Of a stretch of DNA of 64,000 bases, positions 11,926-56,703 are shown in pieces. The stretch's first letter is position 1; each line of letters starts with the position of its first letter. Location of the stretch: positions 330,279 to 394,278 of the forward strand of contig NW_017567004.1 in NCBI RefSeq assembly GCF_001661265.1, in the 5' to 3' direction. Below the pieces are notes generated by a model. The model was not told where the DNA came from. It saw only the letters and a list, made by a program, of their open reading frames with translations, and did not search any database. Made by a program: the position numbers and the translations under genes. Source of the stretch: Saitoella complicata NRRL Y-17804 (taxonomy: Eukaryota > Ascomycota > Saitoellomycetes > Saitoellales > Saitoellaceae).

Positions 11926-12016
11926 GCCTTCGTGGCTCAGCTGGTTAGAGCGCCCTGCTCATATCTGCTACCAAGCGGGTACGGGGAGATCGCGAGTTCG
12001 ATCCTCGCCGAGGGCA
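11926..12016 (+). tRNA. tRNA-Met(CAT), elongator type, with a 17-nt intron
   Basis: Acceptor stem GCCTTCG pairs with CGAGGGC, with discriminator A. D arm GCTC/GAGC and T arm GCGAG/CTCGC with loop TTCGATC are standard. The anticodon stem CCCTG/CGGGG closes a loop CTCATA, giving CAT, interrupted one base after the anticodon by TCTGCTACCAAGCGGGT, the canonical intron position. A TTTT tract just downstream suits Pol III termination. Six bases (GCCTTC) identical to the start of the gene are repeated directly upstream. Confidence 0.93.
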
Positions 12017-12259
12017 CGCTTTTGCTTTAGTAAGCTGCGGACAGGGGTTTTGTAACACTAGTTCGTTCGCAATTTGTTCAGGAAGGAAGCTTTTGTCAAG
12101 CCAATGTCGGAGAATATCTCGTCGTTCTTAACCGACACGGCAGTTCGGCGGCCGACGTACATTGTGCGGGGTTACTTAGCGCGCGGACAACCATACCGAT
12201 ATTTGTGGGGACCCCCAGATCACTGAGGACTTTACACCACGGAGAAACAACGATTGAGA

Positions 12260-14416: not shown

Positions 14417-14488
14417 GGGCGTTTAGTTTAGGGGTATAACATTCGCTTCGCATGCGAAAGGTCCTGGGTTCAATTCCCAGAACGTCCA
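14417..14488 (+). tRNA. tRNA-Ala(CGC), copy 1
   Basis: Acceptor GGGCGTT/AACGTCC with discriminator A and a G3:U70 pair, the alanine identity element. Anticodon stem TTCGC/GCGAA closes loop TTCGCAT, so the anticodon is CGC. T arm CTGGG/CCCAG. No intron. Identical in sequence to the copies at 20198 and 22605. Confidence 0.95.
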
Positions 14489-20197: not shown

Positions 20198-20269
20198 TGG
20201 ACGTTCTGGGAATTGAACCCAGGACCTTTCGCATGCGAAGCGAATGTTATACCCCTAAACTAAACGCCC
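20198..20269 (-). tRNA. tRNA-Ala(CGC), copy 2
   Basis: Exact 72-nt reverse complement of the tRNA at 14417-14488, sharing also the ATTCC just 5' of the gene. The 3' flank on the transcribed strand is T-rich (TTTTTTG), as expected for a Pol III terminator. Confidence 0.95.
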
Positions 20270-22604: not shown

Positions 22605-22676
22605 TGGACGTTCTGGGAATTGAACCCAGGACCTTTCGCATGCGAAGCGAATGTTATACCCCTAAACTAAACGCCC
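22605..22676 (-). tRNA. tRNA-Ala(CGC), copy 3
   Basis: Exact repeat of the minus-strand copy at 20198-20269 over the 72-nt gene; 5' flanking sequence differs (CTAA rather than TTCC), so the similarity stops at the gene edge. A TTTTG follows on the transcribed strand. Confidence 0.95.
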
Positions 22677-49879: not shown

Positions 49880-50964
49880 CTACGCACTCATACTCTCCTT
49901 GGGCTCCTTAGGAGCGCTAGTATCCACGATCCTAAAAGTACCTTTCCGAACACCTTCATACGCCTTCCTCTGCACAATACCCTCTACCCTCATCCTCTCA
50001 ATCCGCTCCATCTCATCAGCCTTCGCAAGTGCTTCCTGCTCCAGCTCATTCATGGTCTTGATCTTCATGACCTCCGCAGCGTCCTCGGAGGTAATAGAAC
50101 GAGATTCAGGGACCATCGTCATACGAGCGTAGCCTGCTTTGGTGGGAGACATGATAGTGACGGCGTCTTCGGGCTCGGTGGTGTTGGTGAGGTGAGGGAG
50201 GTAACGGTGGACTTCCCTTTCGAAAGTGAAGAGGGTATGCTGGTTCTGTGTAGATCATTAGCTTCTATTTGCTAGATAACTTTGATGATGCTCCGTGTCT
50301 GGCATGATTGACGGTGTACGATCAATCCAGGAGAAGTGCTTGTTCGCTCAGGAAACAGGTATAATTTGGAACCATGTGGTATGTCTTAAAGACTAATCGT
50401 ATGTTTGAGCATCATGCGAGACAAGCACATCTCCCGTATTGGATTGATTTGTCGTAAACCATCGCACAGCCGTTATCACGAGCAAATCGGAGGAGCAGAA
50501 CATACCGAGTCAATCATCTTGCGCTCAAAGTCAACCAACCTCACAACAGCCTTCACTCTCTCCAAGGAAAGACTTCTTTGCTGAGAAAGCTCAAGAATGG
50601 ACTTCCCGTTCTGCCACGCCTCGTAAATCGAGTCCTTCTCTGCACGAGAGAGGACAGGTCTGGGCCTGAAGGTAGGGTTCGAAGGGAAAGGCACCCTGGC
50701 CTGGTTGATGTATGTTGGACCGGAAGGATACTTCAACGCTAAACCCTTCGTCTCCTCCCATCTGAAGAAAGCAGCTCTCAGCCTGTTTTTGACCGGCCCT
50801 CTGGGCTTCGCCTGGGTGGCCTCCTTTTCGACTGCGGTATCTTCAGCTGAGGTTTCGGCTTCTTCGGCGAAAGCTGGCCGCGATGAAGTGAATGTCCGTG
50901 ATGGTGCAGCAAAGAAAATTGACTTGTTCTTGCACACAGAGGCGGTTATTCTTCGAGGAAGCAT
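49880..50964 (-). CDS. Mitochondrial ribosomal protein mS45-like (Bot1/MRPS35 family)
   Basis: Two minus-strand exons (50964-50506 and 50245-49880) give 274 residues. An Arg/Ser-rich N-terminus (MLPRRITASVCKNKS, PSRTFTSSRPAF) is a typical mitochondrial presequence. The body matches the fungal eukaryotic-mitochondrial-regulator family: RAAFFRWEETKGLALKYP, AEKDSIYEAWQNG, SLERVKAVVRLVDFERKM, then a helical C-terminus. Yeast Mrps35 and fission yeast Bot1 are small-subunit mitoribosome proteins. The single intron (50246-50505) is 260 bp, by far the longest in the window, and carries a probable C/D snoRNA. The ATG at 50964 is the first in frame and begins the presequence. Confidence 0.85.
50336..50428 (-). 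ncRNA. Candidate C/D-box snoRNA in the mS45 intron
   Basis: On the minus strand, inside the 260-bp intron, GTGCTTGTCTCGC (50428-50416) pairs with GCGAACAAGCAC (50347-50336), a 12-bp terminal stem with one bulged base. Immediately inside lie a C-box-like ATGATGC (50415-50409, 6 of 7 to RTGATGA) and a perfect D box CTGA (50351-50348), leaving a 68-nt core. The core contains CGATTAGTCTTT (50399-50388), the exact complement of AAAGACTAATCG, a universally conserved 25S rRNA segment near the sites methylated under snR39/snR59 and snR60 guidance in yeast. No clear D' box is seen. The rRNA match is from memory. Confidence 0.65.
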
Positions 50965-56306: not shown

Positions 56307-56397
56307 GCCTTCGTGGCTCAGCTGGTTAGAGCGCCCTGCTCATATCTGCTAACAAGCGGGTACGGGGAGATCGCGAGTTCGATCCTCGCCGAGGGCA
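56307..56397 (+). tRNA. tRNA-Met(CAT), intron-containing, second copy
   Basis: Identical to the tRNA at 11926-12016 except one intron base: the intron here is TCTGCTAACAAGCGGGT (A for C). The mature sequence, the upstream GCCTTC hexamer and the downstream CGCTTTT are the same. A TTTTT tract follows as terminator. Confidence 0.93.
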
Positions 56398-56703
56398 CGC
56401 TTTTTGTAGTGTACTTTCTTTTGCTTTGCTCGGCTATGTACTGTACCCACTCATCGATCGGTATGCGAAGAAAACAGCGAAGATCTCGAGTTTTATGTTT
56501 CAGACGCGTCGGCATTCCTTCCTCCTTCCAGATCTACCTACCCCAGCTGAGCTACGCGTACAAGCATGGCGCGTACATCGGCAAAAGTTGCCCAAAACCT
56601 CCCCAGAGCAACTTGAGCCCCTGAAGCATTCACTCCCAAACGACTCCACCAAGAGAGTCAGTCAGCGTTCAGTCGTTGAAGAAGAGCATACATTCTCTAC
56701 AGC
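56398..56703. other. Promoter region of the GH72 gene
   Basis: 306 bp between tRNA-Met and the GH72 ATG. Short frames are not convincing. No clear TATA box is seen; the last 60 bp are A/G-rich leader-like sequence. Confidence 0.4.

Follow-up and report, generated by a model that had tools for sequence, protein, structure and literature searches.

A putative single-guide box C/D snoRNA in the intron of a Bot1p-domain gene of Saitoella complicata, best read as snR83/CD39

The window analysed here, a 64-kb stretch of DNA, lies on the contig labelled C13 in the 14.1-Mb assembly of Saitoella complicata, an ascomycete of the Taphrinomycotina. Table 1 lists the features of a two-exon gene in this window and of the putative snoRNA in its intron. 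Splicing the two exons gives a protein of 274 aa that is 100% identical to a protein of S. complicata NRRL Y-17804 (P0001) and contains a Bot1p domain (Pfam PF12298, 97.3 bits); a protein search for its relatives, with 926 candidates, returned the host protein only. We take this Bot1p-domain protein to be mS45-like and mitoribosomal, and with this presumed identity the proposal of the initial annotation that an intron of a mitoribosomal-type gene hosts a C/D snoRNA is supported. The same annotation had counted such a host as an odd point, but the oddness is mild: PMC3511168 portrays snoRNAs as moving between host genes of broad expression. The candidate snoRNA is about 85 nt from the 5' splice site, as compared to the 41-60 nt given as usual for intronic snoRNAs of Neurospora crassa (PMC2780460). 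According to a genome search (very common words skipped), the intron matches a single place in the genome, its own locus, and on this ground we rejected that it is a repeat or a mobile hairpin.

Table 1. Host gene and putative snoRNA features (positions in the 64-kb window)
Feature	Position	Strand	Basis
Host exon 1 (Bot1p-domain protein)	50506..50964	-	joined translation and Pfam PF12298
Host intron, 260 nt, phase 0, GTATGT...CAG	50246..50505	-	sequence
External stem, 5' side: GGAGA; TCAATCCA; TACGA; GATGGT	50430..50463	-	fold prediction
5' arm of the terminal stem (8+4 bp, a single bulged C)	50416..50428	-	fold prediction
Inferred mature C/D snoRNA, about 78 nt	50343..50420	-	box positions; ends inferred, about 5 nt outside the boxes
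Box C ATGATGC, last base of RTGATGA changed	50409..50415	-	sequence
D' guide CGATTAGTCTTT, antisense to 25S AAAGACUAAUCG	50388..50399	-	rDNA antisense comparison
Candidate D' box AAGA, directly abutting the guide, site to A917 (yeast numbering)	50384..50387	-	register table
Weak C' candidate ATGGTTC, 4/7 to RTGATGA, 8 nt after D'	50369..50375	-	by eye
Box D CTGA	50348..50351	-	sequence
Terminal stem, 3' arm	50336..50347	-	fold prediction
External stem, 3' side: TCTCC; TGGATTGA; TCGTA; ACCGTC	50310..50334	-	fold prediction
Branch-like GCTAATG in the host intron	50262-50256	-	sequence
Host exon 2	49880..50245	-	joined translation and Pfam

The boxes are found where a C/D snoRNA should have them, box C near the 5' end (6/7 to RUGAUGA) and box D (CUGA) near the 3' end, 57 nt apart at the inner end of a hairpin; that both sit directly inside the stem, in the right order and on the right strand, had been noticed before and holds. 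The one-base deviation of box C, noticed at the same time, is real and mild, and the changed base presumably lies outside the core pairs of the kink-turn. For comparison, 86% of the C/D boxes of N. crassa are highly conserved, and therefore some deviate, and D' and C' boxes are described as degenerate (PMC2780460).

An Rfam covariance-model search of the intron region (50200-50560), a check that the initial annotation had suggested, returned no family match even at E up to 10. At gathering scores the whole window gives six Rfam matches, all of them tRNA. Matches to the SNORD18 and snR69 families were absent from the genome, but also from the controls. We note that the window has three identical tRNA-Ala(CGC) genes within a span of 8.3 kb (14417-14488, 20198-20269 and 22605-22676), together with two near-identical tRNA-Met genes with a 17-nt intron (11926-12017 and 56307-56398; one base apart by eye).

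The terminal stem, annotated before as 12 bp, is predicted to pair as 8+4 bp: from the boxes outward it consists of 4 bp flush with the boxes (TCGC/GCGA), the bulged C, and then at least 8 bp (GTGCTTGT/ACAAGCAC). The predicted hairpin is longer than the initial annotation had it, with four outer helices, interrupted by up to 5 nt, in which each 5' segment of Table 1 pairs with the 3' segment of the same rank (GGAGA/TCTCC to GATGGT/ACCGTC). The fold z is -5.2 for 50320-50450 and -3.9 for the whole intron, and in both cases 0/200 shuffles were as stable.

To see these signals against chance, we collected all C...D pairs (defined as RTGATGN...CTGA, both strands) in the window, and 23 were found. 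The flanking stem of the candidate is the best of all 23 (-16.2, as compared to -8.1 for the next), and no pair but the candidate has an antisense of 12 nt to a 4.5-kb stand-in rDNA (L013), two others reaching 11 nt; no second snoRNA emerged among the 12 of the 23 pairs listed in the stem and antisense comparison, where the next C...D pairs have weak stems. Out of 20,000 shuffles of the intron, 908 contain a C...D pair, 56 of which also have a flush stem of at least 4 bp, and none has a stem at -14 kcal/mol or better. A 12-nt match anywhere in L013 is found in 383 of 5,000 shuffled introns, so the 12-nt antisense taken alone is weak and not decisive evidence. The earlier claim that boxes, stem and antisense are unlikely to coincide by chance is borne out by the stem and the boxes.

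We then compared the external stem with those of five C/D places that the Rfam models find in the same genome (three above the cut-offs, namely snR60, snR61 and one snR38, and two under them, U14 and a second snR38), using 30-nt flanks, each shuffled base by base 300 times, a test that also counts local hairpins. The candidate has 22 pairs across its flanks (-33.7, 0/300 shuffles), similar to snR60 (26 pairs, -37.1, 0/300) and snR61 (24 pairs, -33.7, 0/300). U14 reaches -32.7 (0/300), yet only 9 of its pairs are across, the remainder being local hairpins. The second snR38 has 18 pairs (-19.9, 0/300, or 4/300 with 45-nt flanks), no better than the window's 22 remaining C...D pairs, which have external stems of up to 18 pairs and up to -20.4; the first snR38 has 5 pairs (-11.5, 149/300). 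A long external stem is therefore clear in two of the five compared snoRNAs, arguable in two and absent in one. We rejected external stems as a genome-wide rule, given the few pairs across in U14 and a second snR38 within the window background; the long external stem of the candidate is of a kind also seen around two other snoRNAs of the same genome.

These other loci have neighborhoods of their own. The second snR38-like copy (L018:1501-1583) scores 43.2 bits against a cut-off of 45 and is flanked by exons of an elongation factor 1-gamma gene, with GST_N preceding it and GST_C and EF1G following; this gene is the host of snR38 in S. cerevisiae as well. Upstream of snR61 (L019:1499-1588) there is a weak SNORD33-like match (L019:1247-1330, E 0.17), an order that resembles the fungal snR57-snR55-snR61 cluster. 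The snR60 gene (L007:5962-6068, minus strand) stands in divergent orientation to the gene of ribosomal protein L5 (L007:6418-7317, plus strand) and follows an apparent ATG-GTAAGT splice donor (by eye), with its 26-pair stem around it. The U14-like RNA (L016:1501-1608, i.e. G000:C1:886530-886637; 55.5 bits, cut-off 64) is preceded, 181 nt upstream, by a snR107-like RNA (L016:1200-1319; 43.2 bits, cut-off 44), the same arrangement as described for the mamRNA locus of Schizosaccharomyces pombe (PMC12508059), and the snR107-U14 pairing may be older than Schizosaccharomyces. Finally, a tRNA-Ser(GCT) gene with a 26-nt intron (L017:1387-1494, i.e. G000:C1:1029187-1029294) is followed after 6 nt by the first snR38 match (L017:1501-1589, i.e. 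G000:C1:1029301-1029389), with TTTTT between them; it is this snR38 that has no external stem. By arrangement alone the pair resembles the tRNA-snoRNA dicistrons of plants, which as of 2009 were stated to be characterized exclusively in plants (PMC2780460).

On the yeast sequence, the segment AAAGACUAAUCG corresponds to A913-G924 (S. cerevisiae numbering), its first base being five positions past the D-guide site of snR60. Two patterns did not locate the rDNA of S. complicata itself in the assembly, and the 25S match therefore depends on conservation among other eukaryotes; the eight partial rDNA loci that served as stand-ins show the antisense match claimed earlier, but they were chosen for containing the segment, so that its presence there is by construction. 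For the numbering, the snR60 guide of the same genome (GTCTTTCGCTCCTAT) precedes CTGA and its D-5 position corresponds to the second G in AUAGGGG, which we take to be S. cerevisiae G908. With this anchor the yeast 25S has the expected base at 6/6 other positions that we take to be known methylation sites (805, 807, 817, 867, 876 and 898). Among the real rDNA loci, an A is found at the 817 offset in six of the seven that reach it (T in L008), a U at 898 in seven of eight (G in L005), and G908 and A917 in all eight, largely by construction.

The site to be modified depends on where the D' box is placed. With AAGA as D', the D'+5 position falls on A917, +9 from G908. Among the eight D' registers tried, three have two mismatches to CTGA (TTAA, AAGA and CATA), AAGA is the only one that borders on the entire duplex and at the same time retains GA, and the table was made after the N. 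crassa site list was known, i.e. not blind. The GA of a D' box belongs to the kink-turn. The initial annotation had seen no clear D' box: D' is indeed degenerate, but a candidate exists. The 12-nt guide ends flush at AAGA, with the reservation that D' is degenerate and that the 25S sequence comes from stand-ins. Assignment to A917 fits the register and spacing of snR83/CD39, with two of the seven other registers having as few D' mismatches. Elsewhere in the rDNA the guide forms weaker duplexes with G-U pairs (12 bp with three G-U in L008; 11 bp with two G-U in L013). No correctly placed target of a D guide was found in the eight partial rDNA loci (duplexes of at least 11 bp with at least 9 Watson-Crick pairs).

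We also looked for other A917 guides, and no other likely one was found in the genome with the two patterns tried. The guide 12-mer has a second place, on contig C30, which matches no Rfam model and around which no boxes are visible by eye, and the other guide pattern matches contig C17 shortly after the stop codon of a 237-aa ORF, where no upstream box C is visible by eye; both places were rejected as alternative A917 guides. No paper naming Am917 was found in a literature search.

Taken together, the locus is very probably a real, ordinary intronic C/D snoRNA, and we hold with good confidence that it is a single-guide, intron-encoded RNA, functionally equivalent to snR83/CD39 and probably orthologous to it. 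Alternatively, the snoRNA could be decayed, having once been a C/D guide but having lost its stable expression as box C and D' drifted, as the changed last base of box C, the two mismatches in D' and the lack of an Rfam match might suggest. Decay should break the predicted terminal and external stems and the 12-nt guide, but these are intact, the box C change presumably spares the core pairs of the kink-turn, and the two guide patterns revealed no second likely A917 guide; we therefore consider decay unlikely. Still less probable is that the hairpin is a splicing structure that brings the 5' splice site nearer to the branch point, the boxes and antisense being coincidental. The predicted pairing does extend far past the snoRNA, almost to the 5' splice site, but the boxes are exactly at the tip of the stem, none of the 20,000 shuffles combined a C...D pair with a stem of such energy, and the implied site is a listed guide site of other fungi (PMC2780460).

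The initial annotation had named snR39/snR59 and snR60 as the guides of this rRNA region. We take the snR39/snR59 site to be A807, which on the yeast numbering is 106 nt upstream of the start of the duplex at A913, so this part of the claim was wrong. As for snR60, it is the right neighbor: the duplex of its D guide lies slightly upstream and runs into the segment, the two duplexes having six bases in common (A913-C918), and therefore the candidate and snR60 could not pair there together. The candidate itself is not snR60, however, as none of the eight D' registers gives 807, 817 or 908, and the true snR60 (RF00309, 46.7 bits) is at G000:C13:400161-400267, on the same contig, 19.5 kb away. A guide of the snR39/snR59 (Am807) or snR60 (Am817/Gm908) type can thus be practically discounted.

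If the candidate is the snR83/CD39 equivalent, the Bot1p-domain pre-mRNA would be transcribed and then spliced, and the intron would fold into the long hairpin with the C/D kink-turn at its inner end. The snoRNP proteins would bind the kink-turn and keep exonucleases off a stretch of about 78 nt. The 12-nt element that precedes D' (AAGA) would pair with 25S rRNA, in which the adenosine corresponding to A917 of S. cerevisiae would be 2'-O-methylated by fibrillarin. For the release of the RNA, a rather doubtful but conceivable route is that some Saitoella intronic C/D snoRNAs are freed by an RNase III (Pac1-like) cutting the external stem, not by lariat debranching. RNase III Pac1 of S. pombe is described as cutting stems of at least 20 bp, tolerating small bulges (PMC12508059), and the stems of snR60, snR61 and the candidate are within this range in paired length, that of the candidate with larger interruptions of up to 5 nt. 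If true, RNase III cutting would compete with splicing, linking the output of a Bot1p-type mitochondrial protein to rRNA methylation. The candidate itself, by whichever route it is released, would add a mitochondrial-protein gene to the hosts of snoRNAs.

Four known systems are close to the candidate. The snR60 of the same genome is likewise a C/D guide for the same 25S neighborhood with a long external stem, but it marks G908 and A817 and has its own separate gene. S. cerevisiae also has an RNA named snR83, which we take to be an unrelated H/ACA RNA. The snR107 of S. pombe, located in the mamRNA intron and released by splicing, is likewise an intronic C/D snoRNA in Taphrinomycotina, but differs in its target (Gm2483) and in its non-coding host (PMC11971394). 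Another is CD39 of N. crassa, where 45 of 55 C/D snoRNAs are intronic (PMC2780460). CD39 was found as a cDNA of 73 nt (about 78 nt inferred for the candidate), is intronic, and is predicted to guide 26S-Am897 with a 13-bp duplex at D' (12 bp in the candidate), +9 from Gm888, itself predicted for the snR60 homolog CD48 (PMC2780460, Table 1). Because A917 is +9 from G908 just as Am897 is from Gm888, the candidate is best read, from its sequence, as the snR83/CD39 of Saitoella. One difference is the D-guide target listed for CD39 (Am375), for which no counterpart was found for the Saitoella candidate in the partial rDNA (PMC2780460). The homolog of CD39 listed for the same site is the C/D snoRNA snR83 of S. 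pombe, and the listing gives none for S. cerevisiae, Arabidopsis or human (PMC2780460). The Saitoella RNA would extend the A917 guides, so far listed in S. pombe and N. crassa, to another class of the Taphrinomycotina, and would support an old 2'-O-methyl at the A917 site, for which no guide is listed in S. cerevisiae (PMC2780460).
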